DNA of 64,000 bases, from the NCBI RefSeq assembly GCF_025972045.1, contig NZ_JAPDHX010000006.1, forward strand, positions 1 through 64,000, read 5' to 3'. Origin of the DNA: Micropruina sonneratiae. Its GTDB lineage: Bacteria; Actinomycetota; Actinomycetes; Propionibacteriales; Propionibacteriaceae. The translations under genes and the position numbers were made by a program. Under the pieces are notes generated by a model that saw only the letters and a list, made by a program, of their open reading frames with translations, was not told the DNA's origin and did not search any database. This document shows positions 30,056 through 49,747 of this stretch, in pieces (position 1 is the first letter of the stretch; each line of letters opens with the position of its first letter).

Positions 30056-30934
30056 GTGTCACAGGCTCAGGCGCCGCTCCGCACGTTGCGGATCGGATGC
30101 GAGTTCAACCACGTCGCGCAGTCCGCCGTTCCCGCCAGCTTCCTCGTCAGGCCGGCCGTCGACACCGCGGTGCTGCGCGAGCTCTGGACGACCGACCCGG
30201 TCATCGAAACGGCCCGCTACACCGATCTGTACGGCAACGAGATCCGCCGGGTGATGCTTCCGCCCGGGCAGTCCCTGGTGTCGTACTACGCGGTGGTCGA
30301 GGTCCCCGACGAACTCGACGCCGCCGACGCCTCGGCGCCGGTCAACAGCCCCGAGGACCTGCCCGACGACACGTTGGTGTTCACCCTGCCCAGCCGCTAC
30401 TGCCAGTCGGACATGCTCAGCGGCTCGGCCTGGAACCTGTTCGGTGACCACGACCGCAACTACACGATGGTGGCAGCCATCCAGGACTGGGTGTGGAACC
30501 ACCTCGAGTACCGCACCGGCAGCACGGGATCGTTCTGGACGGCGAAGGATTCCTTCGAGTCCGGGTACGGGGTGTGCCGCGACTTCGCGCACCTGATGGT
30601 GACGCTGTGCCGGGCGATGAACGTGCCGGCGCGCTACTGCAGCGGCTACCTGCCCGACATGGACGTGCCGGTGCTGCCCACCCCGATGGACTTCCACGCG
30701 TGGGTCGAGGTGTACCTCGGTGACCGGTGGTGGACCTTCGATCCGCGGCACAATGCGCGGCGCAAGGGGCACGTGCCGATCGGCCGCGGCCGCGACGCGA
30801 CCGACCTGGCGATGGTCACGACCTGGGGTTCGCCCTGGCTGCGCAGGCTGACCGTGTGGGCGGACGAGGACGAGGTCGACCAGTGGCCGCCGGCCGACAC
30901 CTCGTTCGAGGCCCGCAACCCGTTCGAGGATTGA
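30056..30934 (+). CDS. transglutaminase-like cysteine peptidase/transferase
   Basis: A 292-residue protein with an N-terminal beta-rich domain (TLRIGCEFNHVAQSAVPASF) followed by a transglutaminase core. The triad is Cys174 in GVCRDFAHL, His214 in DFHAWVEVY and Asp229 in FDPRHN. It is the same superfamily as the two transglutaminases at 41636-48562 but belongs to a different branch, without ATP-grasp neighbours. GTG 30056 follows AAGGGGGG. Members cleave or form amide bonds; no substrate is known. It ends at a GCAA-loop hairpin. Confidence 0.8.
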   Translation: MSQAQAPLRTLRIGCEFNHVAQSAVPASFLVRPAVDTAVLRELWTTDPVIETARYTDLYGNEIRRVMLPPGQSLVSYYAVVEVPDELDAADASAPVNSPEDLPDDTLVFTLPSRYCQSDMLSGSAWNLFGDHDRNYTMVAAIQDWVWNHLEYRTGSTGSFWTAKDSFESGYGVCRDFAHLMVTLCRAMNVPARYCSGYLPDMDVPVLPTPMDFHAWVEVYLGDRWWTFDPRHNARRKGHVPIGRGRDATDLAMVTTWGSPWLRRLTVWADEDEVDQWPPADTSFEARNPFED

Positions 30935-41635: not shown

Positions 41636-42580
41636 TCAGCTCAGCGTGCCGTCGGGGTTGACGCGGAACACGTCGACCTTCACCGTCAGCTCGGACTTCT
41701 TCGCCTCGGTGTAGATGACCCCCTTCAGCGGAGACACGTCGCGAAAATCCCGTCCCCAGGCGGTGACGATGTAGCGTGAATCGGCGAAGTGGTCGTTGGT
41801 GGGGTCGATGTCGATCCACTCCCCGCCGGGGACCAGCACCGACGTCCAGGCGTGCGACGCGTCGGAGCCCTCCAGTTTCGGCTGGCCGGGTGGGGGCGAT
41901 GTCTCCACATAGCCCGACACGTACCGGGCCGGCAACCCCACCGAGCGCAGGCAGCCGACCGATAGGTGCGCAAAATCCTGGCAGACGCCCTTGCGCAGCT
42001 TGAGTAGCTCCGGCAGCCGGGTACGCACCGAGGTGGCGCCCAGTTCGTACTTGAAGTCGCGGTAGATCGTCGAGTACAGCCCCACCAGGGCGTCGCCCAG
42101 CGGGCGGTCGGACCACAGGATGCCCTCGGCGTACTGCGTCACCTCGGGGGCCAGGTCGACCAGCGCCGAGGGCAGCAGGAACTCGGCACGCTCCAGGGCG
42201 TCCGCCTCCTGCTCGACCCGGGCCGCCGCCTCGGCGACCGTGAACGAGTTCAGCGACTCCAGGTTGGGCCGCGGCCACGCCACATCGACGTAGGCCACCT
42301 TGCCGACCACGAGTTCGGTGTGCGGGGTGCGCACCTCGACGTAGAAGCTGTGGTTGCCGAAGTGGTCGACGTGCTGGGTGATGACGTCGGGCTCGGGGCT
42401 GACCAGCACCTCGTTCGAGACCACCTGCTGTGACCAGGTCTCCAGCGGGCGCAGGAAGCCGCGCTCGTAACACGCCTCGACCTCGGACTCGTAGCTGTAG
42501 ATCGTCGAGTGCCGGACGCGGTAGCGGCGCGGCGTGTAGTGGTCGGGCCGGCTGATCGCGGCCTGGGCGAGCTCAGTCAT
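41636..42580 (-). CDS. transglutaminase of the ATP-grasp/alpha-E module
   Basis: A 314-residue protein. The N-terminal bacterial transglutaminase-associated domain (YRVRHSTIYSYESEVEACYE) precedes the core with Cys200 in GVCQDFAHLSVG, His243 in SHAWTSV, and Asp in IDIDPTND. This architecture (Tgl_N plus core) accompanies circularly permuted ATP-grasp and alpha-E genes widely. ATG 42580 overlaps the ATP-grasp gene's stop by 8 bp, implying coupling; a longer frame to 42664 is antisense-like. It is predicted to hydrolyse or transfer amide bonds in a peptide-like product. Confidence 0.88.
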   Translation of the reverse strand: MTELAQAAISRPDHYTPRRYRVRHSTIYSYESEVEACYERGFLRPLETWSQQVVSNEVLVSPEPDVITQHVDHFGNHSFYVEVRTPHTELVVGKVAYVDVAWPRPNLESLNSFTVAEAAARVEQEADALERAEFLLPSALVDLAPEVTQYAEGILWSDRPLGDALVGLYSTIYRDFKYELGATSVRTRLPELLKLRKGVCQDFAHLSVGCLRSVGLPARYVSGYVETSPPPGQPKLEGSDASHAWTSVLVPGGEWIDIDPTNDHFADSRYIVTAWGRDFRDVSPLKGVIYTEAKKSELTVKVDVFRVNPDGTLS

Positions 42581-45083
42581 CGGCCACCTGCCACGGGCTG
42601 GCCCAGCCGGCGGATTGCGGACGACGCGGCGCCTGGCGCAGGAAGTGCCGCGGCGCCAACGCATCGGACAGCCTGCGGAACTCCTGGTCGATGGCGGCCA
42701 GCTGCACCGCCAGCACCGGAACGTCGAGCAACTGCTCGGGGTCGGTCGCCTCCAGTGCCTGCGCCAGCGCCAACGCCCGGGACGCCGACGCCTCGTCGCC
42801 CAGCAGGGTCAGGTCGGAGGCCATCGACTCCGCCTGGTAGATCACCGAGCGCGGGTTCAGCCGGTCGAGCAGCAGCAGGTCGATGGCGGACTCGAGGGCG
42901 ACCGTCGGGCCGGTTCCGGCGGCGGCGCGACGCCGGTGGGTGATGATCGACTCGCCGGCCCGCAGCACCGCCTCGACGACCAGGTCCTCGACCGGTCGGG
43001 GACGTTGCTGGGTCAGGGCGCTGCCGAGCAGCGCCAGCGTCATCTGTGCCCGTTCCATCCGGCAGCCGGCGTCGAGGAACGCCCACGATTCGTCGCGCAC
43101 CATGCTCTGCGCCATGATCCCGGCCAGGGCCAGCAGCGACTCCAGCACGTCGTCGAGCAGGGTCTGCAGCTGGTCGTCGTCGTCGGGGATCTCCTCCAGG
43201 GTCTGGTTGAGCCGGCCCAACACCGCCCAGGTGTCCACGCTGAGCAGGTCGCGCACGTGCTGGGCGGCGTTGATCACCTGGCTGGCGCAGTGCCGCACGG
43301 TGCCGGAGCGGCCGGCGTCCAGCACGGCGCGGCGCAGGTACGACACAGAAGACTCGCCCGCACCGATCGAGCCGGTCACGGTGACCCAGGCCACCGCCTG
43401 CAGCAGGACGTCGGTGGCCACGGCTCCCGGCGTTCCGGTGCGGCTGACGTTGTCCTCGGCGAAGTCGTCGACGACCTTCAGCAACCGGGCGGTGCCCTCG
43501 GCGCGTTCGGCGTAGCGGCCCATCCAGTACAGGTTGTCGGCCACGCGCGGCGACAGGCCGGTGGCCCGGACCACCAGCGGCGGGCCGAGCCGGCGGTCGC
43601 GGACGCTCAGCGCCGGCTGCTCGGCGTCCGAGGACAGCACCCAGACGTCCTTGGCCAGCGCGCCGGTGTAGTTCGAGACGGTGTACTCGCCGACCCGGGC
43701 CGCGACCCGGCCCAGACCGCCGGGCAGGAAGTGGTAGTCGTCGTCGTGGGCGACGCCGAAGGTGCGCAGCACGAACCGGCGGGGCTCCAGCCCGGCCCGG
43801 GTCACCACCGGCGCGGTGGACAGCTGCATCGGCTCCTGGCCGCACCACACCCACGGCTCGGCCCTCAGCCGGTCGGCCAGTTCGCCCCGTTCGGCTCCGT
43901 TCAGCTGCCAGCCGTAGCGCACCGGGCCCATCGCCCGCGAGATCGGCTTGATCACCAACGAATCCAGGTTGGCCAGAACATGCGAGAGCTCGTTCGGGCG
44001 GCCGCACCACCAGGTCGTCGGGCTGGGCAGCCGAAGATCCTCCCCGATCAGCGCCCGGGCGGCACTGCCGAGATGCGCCAGCAGGGCGGGGTTCTCCAGG
44101 ACGCCGGCACCGACCGGGTTGACCACGGCGACGGTGCGGTTCCGGGCCGCCTCGATCAGGCCCGGGACGCCGAGCTGGGAGTCGCCGCGCAGTTCGAGGG
44201 GATCGGCGTAGGCGGCGTCCACCCGGCGCAGGATGACGTCGACCTGCTCGAGCCGGTCGCCCGCCCGCAACCACACCTTGCCCTGCTCCATCACCAGGTC
44301 GTCCGCCTCGACCAGCGGAAAGCCCAGCAGGGTGGCCAGGTAGGCCTGCTCGAAGGCCGTCTCGCTGCCCGGCCCGGGGGTGAGCAGCACCACCCGGGGT
44401 GGCTCGGTCGCCGACGGCGAGGCGTCCTGCAGCGCCGCGGTGAAGGTCTGGAAGAAGCCGCGTAGCCGGGCCAGCGGGGTGGCGCGGTGCAGCCCCGCCA
44501 TCACCCTGGAGATGATCCGCCGGGTGGCCATCGCGTAGCCCGGTCCGGACGGTGCCTGAGTGCGGTCGGAGATCACCGTCCACGCTCCGTCGGCGTTGCG
44601 GGACAGGTCGGTCGCGGCCACCACCAGTTGCCGGTGGCCCGGCGCGTCGACTCCGACGGTTTGCCGGATGTAGCCGTCGTGGGCCAGCACCGCCTCGGGC
44701 GGGATCACCCGGCGGCGCAGCAGCGTCCGGTCGCCGTAGAGGTCCGAGAGCACCAGGTCGAGCAGCACCGCGCGCTGCCGCAGCCCGTCGGTCAGCGCGG
44801 TCCATTCGCTGCCGCCGATCAGCACCGGGATCGGGTCGATCGCCCAGTTGCGGGCGCCGGCCTGGCCGGTGCCGTAGGTCACGCCCTCGTCGGACGCCAG
44901 CGAACCGGCCTCCTCGCGCGCCTCCTGCAAGCCGGCCATCCCCATCGCGTCCAGGGCGGCGCCCAGCGCGGCCTGATCGGTGCGCAGCCCGTCGACGGTC
45001 ACCAACTCGTCGACGGCGTCCGGGCGCAGGCGTGCCCGGTACTCGTCGAGGACGCCCGATTCGAGCGGGACGGCTGCGGACAT
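42573..45083 (-). CDS. circularly permuted ATP-grasp fused to alpha-E domain
   Basis: An 836-residue fusion. Residues ~40-490 are the circularly permuted ATP-grasp peptide-ligase domain (YGTGQAGARNWAIDPIPVLI, LTPGPGSETAFEQAYLA, VVNPVGAGVLENPALLAHL, LVIKPISRAMG, FVLRTFGVAHDDDYHFLPGG). Residues ~495-800 are the all-helical alpha-E (DUF403) domain (LSPRVADNLYWMGRYAERAE). Often these are two genes; here they are fused. ATG 45083 begins the conserved part. ATP-grasp proteins join carboxylates to amines; the product of this family is unknown. It sits between two transglutaminases on the same strand. Confidence 0.9.
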   Translation of the reverse strand: MSAAVPLESGVLDEYRARLRPDAVDELVTVDGLRTDQAALGAALDAMGMAGLQEAREEAGSLASDEGVTYGTGQAGARNWAIDPIPVLIGGSEWTALTDGLRQRAVLLDLVLSDLYGDRTLLRRRVIPPEAVLAHDGYIRQTVGVDAPGHRQLVVAATDLSRNADGAWTVISDRTQAPSGPGYAMATRRIISRVMAGLHRATPLARLRGFFQTFTAALQDASPSATEPPRVVLLTPGPGSETAFEQAYLATLLGFPLVEADDLVMEQGKVWLRAGDRLEQVDVILRRVDAAYADPLELRGDSQLGVPGLIEAARNRTVAVVNPVGAGVLENPALLAHLGSAARALIGEDLRLPSPTTWWCGRPNELSHVLANLDSLVIKPISRAMGPVRYGWQLNGAERGELADRLRAEPWVWCGQEPMQLSTAPVVTRAGLEPRRFVLRTFGVAHDDDYHFLPGGLGRVAARVGEYTVSNYTGALAKDVWVLSSDAEQPALSVRDRRLGPPLVVRATGLSPRVADNLYWMGRYAERAEGTARLLKVVDDFAEDNVSRTGTPGAVATDVLLQAVAWVTVTGSIGAGESSVSYLRRAVLDAGRSGTVRHCASQVINAAQHVRDLLSVDTWAVLGRLNQTLEEIPDDDDQLQTLLDDVLESLLALAGIMAQSMVRDESWAFLDAGCRMERAQMTLALLGSALTQQRPRPVEDLVVEAVLRAGESIITHRRRAAAGTGPTVALESAIDLLLLDRLNPRSVIYQAESMASDLTLLGDEASASRALALAQALEATDPEQLLDVPVLAVQLAAIDQEFRRLSDALAPRHFLRQAPRRPQSAGWASPWQVADD

Positions 45084-45121
45084 GCTGGCCAACCTAGCGG
45101 GTGCGGACACCGCTTCCTCAC

Positions 45122-48100
45122 TCAGCCCACGTGGCCGGGCGAGTAGCGGCGCAGGTCGACGGTGCACGGGTACTCGGTGCCCATCGGCCCGAAAACGGCC
45201 TCGGCCGACGGCCAGCCCGAGGTGTCGACCGGGCCGGGGGTGTGGCCGAGTTCGCTGAACCTGGACGCCCGCCGCGACTCCGCCTCGACGGCGTTGACCG
45301 GGTAGTTGTCGTAGCTGCGCCCGCCCGGGTGAACGACGTGGTAGGTGAACCCGCCCAGCGACCGGTCGTTCCAGGTGTCGACTAGGTCGAACACCAGCGG
45401 CGAGTGGATGCCCATCGTCGGATGCAGCGCCGACCAGGGCGCCCAGGCGCGGTAGCGCACACCGCCCACGAACATGCCGGTGGTCGCCGGTGCGTCGTCG
45501 GAGCCCAGCGCCGTGCCCCAGCCACCGTTCTCGACCGGCACCATCGGTACCGGGACGCCGTTGCAGGTCACCACGTGCCGCCCTTCGACGAGGTCGGACA
45601 CCGCCAACTGCACCCGCTCGACGGAGGAGTCGACGTAGCGCGAGGTGCCGGACGCCGTCGCCTCCTCACCCAGCACGTGCCACGGCTCGATCGCCTGACG
45701 CAGCTCGAGGTGCACCCCCGAGATGCGGGTCTCGCCCAGCCGTGGGAACCGGAACTCCAGGAACGGGTCCAGCCAGGCCGGGTCGAAGTGCGCGCCGGGG
45801 GACGCCTGTGCCAGCCAGGCGTTCACGTCGGCGACCACCTCGCGCAGGTCGGCGGCGGCGAAGGCGGGCAGCAGGAAGCGGTCATGCAGCCGGGTGCCCC
45901 AGCGGATCAGCCGGCTGCGGTAGGGCTGCGACCAGAACATCGCTACCAGGCAGCGCACCAGCAGGGCCTGGACCAGCGCCATCCGCGCGTGCGGCGGCAT
46001 CTCGAAGCCGCGCAGCTCGAGCAGGCCGAGGCGTCCGCGCTGCGAATCGGGGGAGTACAGCTTGTCGATGCAGAACTCCGAGCGGTGGGTGTTGCCCGTC
46101 AGGTCGGTGAGCAGGTGCCGCAGCAGCCGGTCGGTGTTCCAGGGCAGCGACGGCAGGTCGTCGTCGGGGGCGAACGCGGCGGCGTCCGCAGTGACCCGGT
46201 CGAGCTCGGCGAAGGCGATCTCCATCTCGTACAGGGTCTCGGGCCGGCCCTCGTCGAACCGGGGGGCCTGCGAGGTGGGGCCGATGAACCGCCCGGAGAA
46301 CACGTACGACAAGGACGGATGGTGCTGCCAGTAGGTGAGCAGCGAGCGCAGCAGGTCGGGTCGCCGCAGCAGCGGGGAGTCGGTCGGGGTGGCGCCGCCC
46401 AGGGTGAAGTGGTTGCCGCCGCCGGTGCCGGTGTGGGTGCCGTCGAGGTCGAACTTCTCGGTCGCCAACCGGGTGCGGCGAGCGTCGTCGTAGAGGGACA
46501 GGGTCAGGTCGCGCTGCTCGGCCCAGCCGGAGGTGGGCTGGGTGTTGACCTCGATCACGCCCGGGTCGGGGGTCACCGAGAGGGTCTTGGTGCGCAGGTC
46601 GAACGGCAGCGGGTAGCCCTCGAGCACCACCGGCAACTCGACCGCGGACGCCGCCGTCTCGACGACGCTGAGCAGTTCGAGGGCGTCCTCGAGCCTGGCC
46701 AGCGGCGGCAGGAAGACGTACAGCCGGCCGTCGCGCTCTTCGACGCACAGCGCGGTGCGCGGCGCCTCCTCGATGTCGAGCACCTTCGCCGCCGGCGCCT
46801 CGCCCTCGACGATGAGGGGCAGCAGCCCGGTCATCTCGAACGGCGAGCGTTCGATCTCCTCGGGCACCGGCGACCAGGCGATCGCGTTCAACGGCAGCCG
46901 GAACCCCATCGGCGAGGTGCCACCGGTCAGCATCAGGTGCCGGCGCCGGGGCCGCCACTGCGTCGTGCCCCAGACGCCCTCGTCGGCGAGCCGGAACACC
47001 GGCACCACCCACCCGCGTGGGGCACCGCGGCCGGCGTCGATCGCGGCCAGTTCGTCGTCGGCCGACGCCTCGTCGTCGGCCGCGCCCGGCTCGGGGTCAT
47101 CGGGTCGGGCCCCGGCCGGCTTCAGCGCCTCGTTCATCAGCGCCAGCAACGGATCCTCGAAGGCCGGCACGACGTGGCTGCCGGGGACGCCGAGTCCCCC
47201 GGCGATGTAGGCGGCCAGGTCGCGCACCGCGGTCTGCGCCTCGGCCGAGCCGGGTTCGACGCTCGGCTCGTCCCACGGGTTGGCCAGCAGCGAGCGGTCC
47301 TCCCAGATCGGCACCCCGTCGGACCGCCAGGTGATCGCGATGTTCCAGCGCGGCAGGTCCTCGCCCGGGTACCACTTGCCCTGGCCGTGGTGGACGACGC
47401 CGCCGGGCGCCCAGCGCTGTTCGAGCCGGGCCGCGAGCTGCCGGGCCAGCGCCCGCTTCTCGGGACCGTCGGCGGCGCCCTCCCATTGCGGGGTGGCGGT
47501 GTCGTCGGCGGAGACGAAGGTGGGTTCACCGCCCATCGTCAGCCGGACGTCGCCCGCCGCCAGCAGTTCGTCGACGGTGCCGCCGAGGGCGTCCACGGCG
47601 TCCCACTGCTGGTCGGTGTAGGGCTTGGTCACCCGCGGGTCCTCGTGCACCCGACGGACGGTGTTCGCGAACGCCATGGTCACCGCGACCGGCGCCGTGG
47701 CACCCGAGATCGGCGCGGCGGACGCCGGGTGCGGGGTGGCCGACAGCGGAATGTGCCCCTCGCCGGCGAACAGGCCCGAGGTGGGGTCGAGGCCGATCCA
47801 GCCGGCCCCGGGCACGTACACCTCGGCCCAGGCGTGCAGGTCGGTGAAGTCCTCCTTGGGACCCGACGGGCCGTCCAGCGCCTCGACGTCGGAGGTGAGC
47901 TGGACGAGGTAGCCGGAGACGAAACGCGCGGCCAGCCCGGCCTCGCGCAGCACCGACACCAGCACCCAGGCCGAGTCGCGGCACGAGCCGAGCGCGTTGG
48001 CCAAGGTCGTGTCGGGGGTCTGGACGCCGTGCTCCATCCGCACCGTGTAGGCGATGTCGTGCTGCAGCGCGGTGTTCACCGCGACCAGGAAGTCGACCAT

Positions 48101-48562
48101 CCGGGGACGCTCGTCGCCGGTGAGCCCGGCGTAGCGGTCGGTGATGTGCTGCTGCACCCACTGCCTCAGCAGCGGGCCGGGCCCGTCGCCGGACTCGTCG
48201 ACCGGGCGCAGGTACGGTTCGAGGTCCGCCCGCAGCGCGGCCGGGTACTCGAAACCGAACCGTTCGGCGTACTCCTCGAGGAAGAAGTCGAACGGGTTGA
48301 TCACGGTCATGTCGGCCACCACGTCGACGGTGATGTCGAGTTCCTTCACCGGTTCCGGGAAGACCAGTCTCGCCAGGTAGTTCCCGAACGGATCCTGCTG
48401 CCAGTTGATGAAGTGGTTGCGCGGCTCGACGGTGAGCGAGTAGGCGGCGATCGGCGTCCTGGAATGCGGTGCGGGCCGCAGCCGCACCGTGTGCGGGTAC
48501 ACCTGCACCGGTTCGGCGAAGGTGTACGTGGTGCGGTGTTCGAGAGCTACCCGGATCGTCAC
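45122..48562 (-). CDS. transglutaminase plus DUF2126 large protein
   Basis: A 1146-residue protein. Residues 1-~100 are the transglutaminase N-terminal domain (IRVALEHRTTYTFAEPVQVY). The transglutaminase core has Cys194 (GSCRDSAWV), His243 (LHAWAEVY) and Asp259 (GLDPTSG). The remaining ~850 residues are DUF2126 (RLTMGGEPTFVSADD, FTLGGATPTDSPLLRRPDLL, GGRSYDNYPVNAVEAESRR). GTG 48562. It is the first gene of the three-gene minus-strand module; the ATP-grasp gene starts 38 bp downstream. DUF2126 has a putative catalytic core of its own, but no activity is established. Confidence 0.88.
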   Translation of the reverse strand: MTIRVALEHRTTYTFAEPVQVYPHTVRLRPAPHSRTPIAAYSLTVEPRNHFINWQQDPFGNYLARLVFPEPVKELDITVDVVADMTVINPFDFFLEEYAERFGFEYPAALRADLEPYLRPVDESGDGPGPLLRQWVQQHITDRYAGLTGDERPRMVDFLVAVNTALQHDIAYTVRMEHGVQTPDTTLANALGSCRDSAWVLVSVLREAGLAARFVSGYLVQLTSDVEALDGPSGPKEDFTDLHAWAEVYVPGAGWIGLDPTSGLFAGEGHIPLSATPHPASAAPISGATAPVAVTMAFANTVRRVHEDPRVTKPYTDQQWDAVDALGGTVDELLAAGDVRLTMGGEPTFVSADDTATPQWEGAADGPEKRALARQLAARLEQRWAPGGVVHHGQGKWYPGEDLPRWNIAITWRSDGVPIWEDRSLLANPWDEPSVEPGSAEAQTAVRDLAAYIAGGLGVPGSHVVPAFEDPLLALMNEALKPAGARPDDPEPGAADDEASADDELAAIDAGRGAPRGWVVPVFRLADEGVWGTTQWRPRRRHLMLTGGTSPMGFRLPLNAIAWSPVPEEIERSPFEMTGLLPLIVEGEAPAAKVLDIEEAPRTALCVEERDGRLYVFLPPLARLEDALELLSVVETAASAVELPVVLEGYPLPFDLRTKTLSVTPDPGVIEVNTQPTSGWAEQRDLTLSLYDDARRTRLATEKFDLDGTHTGTGGGNHFTLGGATPTDSPLLRRPDLLRSLLTYWQHHPSLSYVFSGRFIGPTSQAPRFDEGRPETLYEMEIAFAELDRVTADAAAFAPDDDLPSLPWNTDRLLRHLLTDLTGNTHRSEFCIDKLYSPDSQRGRLGLLELRGFEMPPHARMALVQALLVRCLVAMFWSQPYRSRLIRWGTRLHDRFLLPAFAAADLREVVADVNAWLAQASPGAHFDPAWLDPFLEFRFPRLGETRISGVHLELRQAIEPWHVLGEEATASGTSRYVDSSVERVQLAVSDLVEGRHVVTCNGVPVPMVPVENGGWGTALGSDDAPATTGMFVGGVRYRAWAPWSALHPTMGIHSPLVFDLVDTWNDRSLGGFTYHVVHPGGRSYDNYPVNAVEAESRRASRFSELGHTPGPVDTSGWPSAEAVFGPMGTEYPCTVDLRRYSPGHVG

Positions 48563-48661
48563 CCTCGCGAATCTAGTGGCCGCTGCGGTGCCGGGTCACC
48601 CGCGGGGCCGGACCGAAACCTCACTGAAACGCCCGGCGAGGCACCCCGCTAGCCTGTACCG

Positions 48662-49747
48662 GTGACTTCTCAGGTACCCGACGAGCACCCTGACCACCAG
48701 GGCAACGAGCCGGCGCCCGACGTGGAACCCGTCACCGACAGCCGCCCGGACGCCGAACCCGACGCCGCCGTCACGCCGCCCCGCTCGCGCAGCCGGTGGA
48801 TCGCCGCCGTCGCCTTCGTGGTGGTCGCTGTGCTGGTCGCCGGCATCGCCTGGCTGCTGCGGCCCCAGCCGCCGGCGTCCGGCGTGCCGTCGGCGACCCC
48901 GCAGGAGGCCGTGGCCGGCTATCTGGACGCCCTGGTCGCGGCCGACGCCGACCGGGCCCTGGAGTACGCACTGAACCGTCCCACCGACACCAGCCTGCTC
49001 ACCGCCGACGTGCTCAAGCGGTCCCAGAAGGAGGCCAAGCTGGCGGTCGTGAACGTGCCCGAGGTCGAGGGCGGCACGATGGTGACGGTACCGGCCGAGG
49101 TGACCCTCGACGGCGAGCCGGCCACCATCTCGTTCACGGTCAACGAGACCGAGGTGGGCTGGCGGCTCGGCCAGGTCACCTCGACGATCGATCCGGGGGC
49201 GCTGCCGTCCTCGCTGAAGGCCAGCCTGAACGGCGTGCGGCTCGCCGATTCGACGCACGTCGAGGTGTTTCCTGGCGTGTACGTCTTCGACCAGGAACTG
49301 CCCCAGCTCGAGCTGGAGGGCAACCGCGTGACGGTGAGCGCGGTCGGCGAGGACATTCCGGCCGGCCTGCACGCGGTGCTGACCGCGCGCGGTGAGAAGG
49401 CGGCCGGCAAGATCGCGGCCGCTGCGTTGAAGAAGTGCCTGGCGAAGAAGAACCCCAGCCCCGAGGGTTGTCCCAACAGCGTCGCGGTCGACAAGAACCA
49501 GAAGATCGCCACCAAGTCGATTCGCTGGAACCTGGTCGGCGACCCGTGGAAGGGCGCCACCTACACCCTGGACGCCGCCGACCCGACGCAGGCCCGTGGC
49601 GCGACCACGCTCAAGCTGCGCTTCCGCTGCACGCTCTCCGAGGGCGGCGAGACGTACGCCGTCGACCAGACCAACTCGGTCAAGGTCCGCTACGCGCTGT
49701 CGGTGGTCGACACCAAGGATCCGGTTGTCTGGCAGCGGGTCGCCTGA
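48662..49747 (+). CDS. membrane-anchored extracytoplasmic protein, unknown
   Basis: A 361-residue protein. The cytoplasmic N-terminus is Pro/Asp-rich (about 40 residues), then one helix (WIAAVAFVVVAVLVAGIAWLL), then an extracytoplasmic region with an NTF2-like first part (TPQEAVAGYLDALVAADADRA) and a second beta-rich part. Two Cys in KKCLAKKNPSPEGCPNSVAV may form a disulfide, with a third in RFRCTL. GTG 48662. No ligand or enzyme motif. Its coding sequence overlaps the patatin gene's proposed start by 23 bp. Confidence 0.65.
   Translation: MTSQVPDEHPDHQGNEPAPDVEPVTDSRPDAEPDAAVTPPRSRSRWIAAVAFVVVAVLVAGIAWLLRPQPPASGVPSATPQEAVAGYLDALVAADADRALEYALNRPTDTSLLTADVLKRSQKEAKLAVVNVPEVEGGTMVTVPAEVTLDGEPATISFTVNETEVGWRLGQVTSTIDPGALPSSLKASLNGVRLADSTHVEVFPGVYVFDQELPQLELEGNRVTVSAVGEDIPAGLHAVLTARGEKAAGKIAAAALKKCLAKKNPSPEGCPNSVAVDKNQKIATKSIRWNLVGDPWKGATYTLDAADPTQARGATTLKLRFRCTLSEGGETYAVDQTNSVKVRYALSVVDTKDPVVWQRVA

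Follow-up and report, generated by a model that had tools for sequence, protein, structure and literature searches.

A predicted nitrogen-controlled amide ligation and hydrolysis system encoded by two operons in Micropruina sonneratiae

Gss of Escherichia coli is a bifunctional glutathionylspermidine synthetase/amidase, in which a single polypeptide serves both as thiol amidase and as amide ligase. Anbu operons of Pseudomonas, Yersinia and other bacteria bring together genes for Anbu, a transglutaminase-fold protein (TG), an alpha-E protein and a circularly permuted (CP) ATP-grasp protein, and were the subject of a prediction by Iyer et al. in 2009 (as related in PMC5666114 and PMC6376114). 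Fusion of a TG to a carboxylate-amine ligase domain has also been described, with Rv2566 as the example (PMC2588565); for Rv2566-type proteins no function was found in the literature searched. Such modules are already predicted to be peptide synthesis or tagging systems, and NtrC control of relatives is in print, yet gene sets with Anbu or DUF2126 are widespread with no agreed physiological role in the literature examined. Here we analyze a 64,000-nucleotide stretch of the Micropruina sonneratiae genome (contig NZ_JAPDHX010000006.1, positions 1 to 64,000; the window), which contains a three-gene operon of this kind, operon A, headed by a TG fused to DUF2126. The window shows half of the system, the other half being an unlinked operon B, and sequence patterns make it quite probable that the two operons form a nitrogen-controlled system for amide ligation and hydrolysis.

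The CP ATP-grasp, alpha-E and TG families of the Anbu operon are found together in the host genome (3.52 Mb in 17 contigs) as well. A further likeness may lie in regulation, as the P. putida Anbu operon responds to nitrogen limitation and is assigned to NtrC. The differences are that a profile search of the host gave no match to PF00227, that operon A adds DUF2126 and an ATP-grasp-alpha-E fusion in which site residues are replaced, and that the host has a GlnR-type box, by pattern, instead of sigma-54 sites. Rv2566-type proteins, likened here by their description, have the same two-domain architecture as the first protein of operon A. E. coli Gss shares its synthetase fold with the host ATP-grasp part (2iob, Z 21.4) and may be an analogy for how the system works, but the thiol domain in the window is a TG fused to a predicted glutamine synthetase (GS)-fold ligase, and no Gss-type CHAP amidase domain was found in the Pfam scan of the operon A proteins. 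An original prediction made from the sequence had pointed out the module; it missed DUF2126 as a GS-fold ligase, the second operon and the nitrogen-type regulatory sites.

On the minus strand, from 48562 to 41636, operon A reads TG-DUF2126, then CP ATP-grasp-alpha-E, then a second TG (small TG; Table 1). These three tightly linked genes had been predicted, and all were recovered with Pfam scores far above the cut-offs and far beyond chance. The open reading frame (ORF) at 45122-48562 matched Bact_transglu_N (4e-26), Transglut_core (6e-16) and DUF2126 (PF09899; 1118.9 bits, cut-off 27), the last over profile positions 4-826 of 826 and thus at full length. CP_ATPgrasp_2 (PF14403; 1.4e-129) and Alpha-E (5.7e-63) were matched by the ORF at 42573-45167, and Bact_transglu_N (1.6e-18) and Transglut_core (3.2e-19) by that at 41636-42664, while NCBIfam gave no family for any of the three proteins at E 0.001. 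The ATP-grasp-alpha-E frame is open to 45167, and alignment of relatives places the conserved start at the ATG at 45083. The conserved start of the small TG, the ATG at 42580 by the same means, overlaps the stop of the preceding gene (ATGACTGA), which is consistent with translational coupling. Both TGs have the intact Cys-His-Asp triads that had been claimed for them: C194/H243/D259 in TG-DUF2126 (PF01841; invariant in 48/48 aligned sequences) and C228/H271/D287 in the small TG (invariant in 28/28), positions that follow from the Pfam ranges and from alignments to solved TG-like proteins. By TG-DUF2126, the closest named relatives belong to Micropruina (85-86% identity).

Table 1. Operon A and the box upstream of it in the window
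Feature	Position	Strand or orientation	Basis
TG-DUF2126: N-terminal transglutaminase-fold thiol enzyme (~residues 1-285) fused to a predicted GS-fold ligase domain	45122..48562	minus	Pfam
DUF2126 domain of TG-DUF2126	residues 293-1138, ~47686-45149	minus	Pfam
CP ATP-grasp (metal/ATP site residues probably replaced) fused to alpha-E	42573..45083	minus	Pfam, conserved start, residue comparison
Second transglutaminase-fold protein (small TG)	41636..42580	minus	Pfam, triad, start overlapping preceding stop
GlnR-type nitrogen box GAAAC-n6-GAAAC	48615..48630	reads 5'-3' on plus, reversed relative to TG-DUF2126	pattern scan

Pfam annotates DUF2126 as a putative amidoligase. A structure model of the 1146-residue TG-DUF2126 (mean pLDDT 78) was compared with solved structures by VIA-align, and residues 1-308 matched the TG-like 3isr (Z 21.6). 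Residues ~310-955 matched glutamine synthetases with Z 15-17 among the matches listed, over 257-284 residues at root-mean-square deviations of 3.6-4.3 and 8-13% identity; GmaS (7cqn) scored Z 15.6. Foldseek alone was weak for this domain, its best GS-like match having E 0.02. Fold comparison therefore points to DUF2126 itself as a GS-fold ligase, which would share its fold with the gamma-glutamyl ligases GlnA and GmaS while differing from them in the low identity and in the fusion to a TG. This fold makes DUF2126 the likelier candidate for the active ligase of the module than the fused ATP-grasp. In the DUF2126 part of 48 sequences 54 charged, histidine or asparagine residues are invariant. 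The ATP-grasp domain, aligned over 35 fused proteins, has 13 such residues, but this contrast is soft because the sets are not equally divergent (mean column identity 54% vs 38%). GS-fold ligases include the Pup ligase PafA (PMC2588565). The protein at 45122-48562 does not belong to PF03136, since only PF09899 and the two TG families match it at E 0.001.

The fused ATP-grasp appears to have taken another course. We compared 56 fused copies, the window's included, with 30 standalone ATP-grasps from the same loci, leaving out three ATP-grasp fragments. All 30 standalone proteins have D187, E200, D201, N202, K407 and GGG at 413-415, and also N-S-S-Q-G-G-G ahead of K506-D507. In the fused copies, position 200 is D (13), S (11), G (11), A (10) or N (8) and never E; position 202 is Arg in 47/56 and never Asn; and the GGG loop is kept in none. 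Position 411 is E in 21 of the 30 standalone proteins and Arg in 44 of the 56 fused ones. Other positions are largely retained in the fused set, namely D187 in 45, D201 in 52 and K407 in 43 (Arg in 12). The copy in the window has S200, R202 and R411 and no GGG, that is, the E-D-N and the glycine loop of the standalone enzymes are missing. By motif register, we take the replaced positions to correspond, in glutathione synthetases, to the metal ligands of E-x-N and to the phosphate-binding loop K-x-x-x-E-x-GGG. The residues replaced are thus probably metal ligands and the glycine loop, and the fused copy probably does not act as a canonical ligase. The replacement residues are themselves conserved, which argues for a role of the fused copy rather than decay.

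A model of the fused ATP-grasp matches the standalone CP ATP-grasp 3n6x (Mfla_0391; Z 41.7, 31% identity by Foldseek) and 2hgs (Z 25.0), and so has the fold of glutathione synthetases. 3n6x is of the standalone type and differs from the fused copy in having EDN and GSGGYG in the alignment. For the alpha-E domain only helical-bundle matches were obtained, at Z up to 10, which is uninformative. The original prediction named loss of ATP-binding residues as evidence that would speak against it; such a loss probably did occur in the fused ATP-grasp, and since the TG triads are intact the module as a whole survives it. The module also stands as widespread and as a predicted maker of amide bonds; what lacks support is the fused ATP-grasp as the ligase responsible. 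The fusion of ATP-grasp and alpha-E is equally real, but it is no peculiarity of the host: among 80 related loci, 55 have an ATP-grasp ORF whose length is that of a fusion (780 amino acids or more). Copies of that length were also present in genomes without DUF2126, so the fusion is not tied to DUF2126.

A profile search of the host genome found two PF14403 places and two PF04168 places. Operon B, on another contig and unlinked to operon A, encodes a standalone ATP-grasp, then an alpha-E protein, then a TG in which C, H and D are visible by eye. Its ATP-grasp keeps the standalone residues, with VLEDN and NSSQGGGSKDTW present, and its loop GSGGKG has two of the three glycines, like GSGGYG of 3n6x. 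The ATP-grasp of the Yersinia Anbu operon is reported to release phosphate from ATP (PMC6376114) and, going by the description of that operon, would be of the standalone type. In an order-wide sample of 245 genomes DUF2126 was found in 39, the host among them, and each of these 39 also has two or more PF14403 places and an ATP-grasp of the standalone type, scoring 514 bits or higher. Standalone-type ATP-grasps occur in 116 of the 245 genomes, which gives a hypergeometric probability of 10^-14.4 for the co-occurrence if kinship is ignored. With 39/39 genomes in agreement, DUF2126 seems to have been added to the standalone system. Two or more PF14403 places were likewise found in 16/16 searched genomes behind the first set of actinobacterial loci described below, some of which are also in the order-wide sample; in two of these 16 genomes the standalone-type copy is partial or split.

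The GlnR consensus of Mycobacterium smegmatis is Gn2AC-n6-GnAACA (PMC3662644). We scanned the 200 bp upstream of TG-DUF2126 for exact matches to GnnAC-n6-GnAAC, a pattern chosen among three related ones scanned first, in a first set of 24 actinobacterial loci and the window; L012 and L047, with little or no upstream sequence, were left out. The box was present in 15 of these 25 loci, including the window, where it lies 53-68 bp upstream of the TG-DUF2126 start in a 99-bp region shared with a divergent gene at 48662. Decoys with permuted letters reached a mean of 0.4 loci and none of 500 reached 15; ordinary upstream windows of the same loci had the box in 4 of 183 cases. A half-site spacing of 6 gave the 15 loci, spacings of 2-5 and 7-10 gave 0 or 1, and 11 gave 4. 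Among validation genomes outside the first set, 18/39 had the box (decoy mean 0.77, maximum 5), after removal of L006-L008, which had wrongly cut windows and whose genomes are included as L009-L011, and of four loci identical to the first set (L111, L114, L161 and L162); two genomes already represented by L023 and L025 were not added. The 33 boxes fall mainly at -38/-39 (20), -49/-50 (4) and -60/-61 (3), with one at -80; five are reversed, four of them at -67/-68, including that of the window, and one at -144. The main positions are 11 bp apart, and GlnR sites are described as built of 11-nt repeats (PMC10704036).

Boxes were also found elsewhere in the host genome, which encodes GlnR (PF21695, 129.6 bits). 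A stricter pattern gave 18 exact matches compared with 4 for the reversed pattern. Two of them precede the two glutamine synthetase genes, at distances of 24 and 37 bp; one is located before operon A and one 22 bp before the operon B ATP-grasp ORF. The remaining 14, before or inside other ORFs with two integrase genes, a transporter and a histidine kinase among them, are taken as background. Upstream of operon B, the box was present in 8 of 15 standalone loci from 14 first-set genomes, that is, in 8 of 11 genomes with an operon A box and in 0 of 3 without one; one of these boxes (locus L227) is apparently the same physical box as that of L049. These findings suggest that GlnR would bind ahead of both operons. 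Among the titles and abstract openings listed in literature searches, none joined GlnR to the module or reported the site replacement in the fused ATP-grasp or a dependence of DUF2126 on a second operon.

A different kind of nitrogen-type site was found in proteobacteria. The set comprised 39 loci picked by record title, and since it contains close relatives (three Nitrincola, several Methylobacter), Poisson values for both site types overstate significance. Sigma-54-like sites, with up to two mismatches to TGGCACG-N4-TTGCW, numbered 22 upstream of module units vs 1.03 expected, in 15/39 loci; in a comparison by windows, 71 module windows had 21 sites and 180 control upstream windows had 9. 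The opposite strand of the module windows had 9, as expected where units diverge, while wrong spacings gave 0 or 1 and letter-swapped cores 0 to 6. Distinct NtrC-like palindromes, counted once in shared divergent regions, numbered 13 vs 1.83 expected with up to two mismatches, in 10/39 loci, and 29 vs 14.9 expected with three. Among six plasmid loci added later, four (two Burkholderia, two Caballeronia) have both kinds of site before the standalone ATP-grasp. The enrichment agrees with published transcriptomes. P. putida PP_2686-2688 rise 11- to 37-fold under nitrogen limitation (PMC7801951), PP_2685-2688 are assigned to NtrB/NtrC (PMC7801951; see also PMC8050072), and B. cenocepacia I35_5080-83 are 6- to 9-fold lower when ntrC is mutated (PMC5491218). 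In marine metagenomes, ATP-grasp, alpha-E and TG domains have been linked to urea metabolism (PMC3597751).

Neighborhood analysis for partner genes, as the original prediction had proposed, showed a peptidase near some relatives. The 80 loci analyzed are the best 80 of at least 588 confirmed stretches, and so lean towards close relatives; their titles include actinobacteria, proteobacteria, Dyadobacter, Poribacteria, Verrucomicrobia and others, and many are metagenome-assembled genomes. An ATP-grasp lies downstream of DUF2126 on the same strand within ~1 kb in 43 and within 2.8 kb in 53 of 67 testable loci. Where there was room for a further gene, a TG came next in 50 of 50 loci at the wider distance and in 41 of 41 at the narrower. 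Anbu was found within 10 kb in at least 14/80 loci and a zinc-ribbon metallopeptidase (PF15887) in at least 13/80, counts that are lower bounds because many loci have short flanks. No locus of the 80 had both, where ~2 would be expected by chance, a difference that is not significant. Neighbors were identified mostly by BLAST clustering, with a Pfam scan of one Anbu and three metallopeptidase members.

Several further observations concern these neighborhoods and the window. Among methanotroph loci, nine have a citrate synthase gene directly following DUF2126 (identified from a scan of one member), and seven have, near the TG, a gene whose ParA/MinD-like match is below threshold (likewise from one member). 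On the A. caldus plasmid NZ_CP005987.1, TG-DUF2126 is split into a TG part and a DUF2126 part ~1.5 kb apart, of which only the latter has a listed CDS. The module there has insertion sequences nearby, with ntrC and glnL no more than ~7 kb away. In the window, the hexamers TAGGTT and TAGATT were seen by eye a few bases before the starts of ATP-grasp-alpha-E and TG-DUF2126 (45083-45122, 48562-48580), which suggests leaderless transcripts and a possible internal promoter. A further transglutaminase family member at 30056-30934 on the plus strand has visible C, H and D. It had been counted as the fourth such gene and does have the fold, but it is the third found, the remaining ORFs of the window lying outside the scan; no nitrogen box was found within the 300 bp before it. 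The host PF10005 zinc-ribbon metallopeptidase homolog (minus strand, 725-1737 of locus L092), of a family that is a frequent module neighbor elsewhere, has a frame change near residue 250, after an intact HExxH, which is either real or an assembly error. The host also has two Pup-ligase-family (PF03136) places without a proteasome-family match, which would amount to pupylation without a proteasome; a C. glutamicum control is alike. We considered the module as a stand-in for pupylation and rejected this, as these two places are present in the host and Pup-ligase matches occur in 36/39 DUF2126 genomes of the order-wide sample (179/245 overall).

Several results weigh against a nitrogen-salvage system under GlnR control. 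The box is missing in 10/25 first-set and 21/39 validation loci, among the latter 6 of 7 genomes from a phylum-wide draw, and was upstream of operon B in 0 of the 30 highest-scoring loci of the order-wide sample, mostly of one other family, where four box matches fall inside the coding start. No nitrogen link was seen for the 14 background matches in the host, part of which were examined with Pfam. The window's own box is reversed and, at -68, off the main positions; lying between divergent genes, it could serve the other gene. Boxes near -38 may overlap the promoter, so that repression is possible. MtrA also binds GlnR boxes, according to a title in a reference list, and PP_2685, the Anbu gene, hardly changes in two of three columns (PMC7801951). 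One could thus suppose that in actinobacteria this is not a nitrogen system at all, the box being an MtrA site or serving the gene at 48662 and the product being an envelope or secreted peptide-like compound. The binding of MtrA, the shared 99-bp region and the missing boxes would fit this, but most boxed loci keep the distance of the box to TG-DUF2126, the host has a box before both glutamine synthetase genes, and the proteobacterial sites and transcriptomes point to nitrogen; we regard this explanation as improbable. Also to be weighed against the proposed system is Rv2569c of M. tuberculosis, a presumed TG homolog with a number next to that of Rv2566, which has been described as a serine protease of the YebA superfamily (PMC11081392); the main text of that paper does not mention transglutaminase.

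The nitrogen evidence would serve equally well for peptide tagging in protein turnover. Proteins would then receive a peptide or glutamyl tag from the ligases, and either Anbu or the zinc metallopeptidase would take the tag off or degrade it, so as to recycle amino acids in nitrogen starvation. Tagging has been proposed in print for the Anbu operon (PMC6376114), the Anbu and metallopeptidase genes near some relatives fit it, and PafA is itself a GS-fold ligase. On the other hand, Anbu is reported to be without peptidase activity and without specific complexes (PMC6376114), the account of the ligase family in PMC2588565 gives no Pup-like small gene beside it, and the host already has two Pup-ligase-family places. 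The only PF10005 metallopeptidase homolog of the host changes frame near its end, and the search of this one genome for PF00227 scored one candidate without a match, although a divergent Anbu could be missed since a known Anbu (locus L035) scores only 34.8 bits (cut-off 22.4). We regard tagging as an unlikely explanation, though less so than a role outside nitrogen metabolism. A separate question, confined to one domain and compatible with a nitrogen-switched amide system, is whether the fused ATP-grasp still functions as a ligase but with changes in its metal and nucleotide site, its replacements being specialization and not loss. The new residues are conserved (R202 and R411 as counted above, and Q204 in 54/56), R468, K506, D507 and W509 are each present in 56/56, and the fold matches 3n6x; set against this are E200, N202 and the GGG loop, kept in 0/56 fused and 30/30 standalone copies. 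We consider such activity possible but somewhat doubtful.

In the nitrogen-salvage system that we propose, nitrogen supply would control operons A and B, with scarcity most likely turning them on. The GS-fold DUF2126 would activate a carboxylate, probably a glutamyl side chain, with ATP and couple it to an amine or peptide, and the fused and separate TG-fold thiol enzymes would hydrolyze or transfer such amides. The canonical-type, glutathione-synthetase-like ATP-grasp of operon B could carry out a second ligation, with the fused ATP-grasp-alpha-E as a non-canonical, perhaps non-catalytic partner. The net role may be to recover nitrogen from amines, peptides or amides derived from proteins, by way of conjugated intermediates. 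We give this role, rather than protein tagging or another product, about an even chance, and the reading as a whole, a presumably cytosolic two-operon system that makes and breaks amides for nitrogen salvage under a nitrogen switch, could as easily prove wrong as right. More tentative is the idea of a conserved nitrogen-starvation pathway new to biochemistry, in which two co-regulated operons build and dismantle a conjugated amide (a metabolite or a protein tag), the pseudo-ATP-grasp-alpha-E acts as sensor or carrier, and GlnR in actinobacteria and NtrC/sigma-54 in proteobacteria recruited the system independently.

These results may prove useful for choosing where to start with this family. 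Two bacterial groups show site patterns of nitrogen regulators that are unrelated to each other, which indicates when to look, namely during nitrogen starvation. The proteins to purify first are DUF2126 and, of the two kinds of ATP-grasp, the standalone one, and a clean knockout needs both operons. If the proposed function is correct, these bacteria would have, in addition to glutamine synthetase, urease and pupylation, a further route for nitrogen salvage or tagging, and a long-unexplained gene set would gain a testable physiological role.

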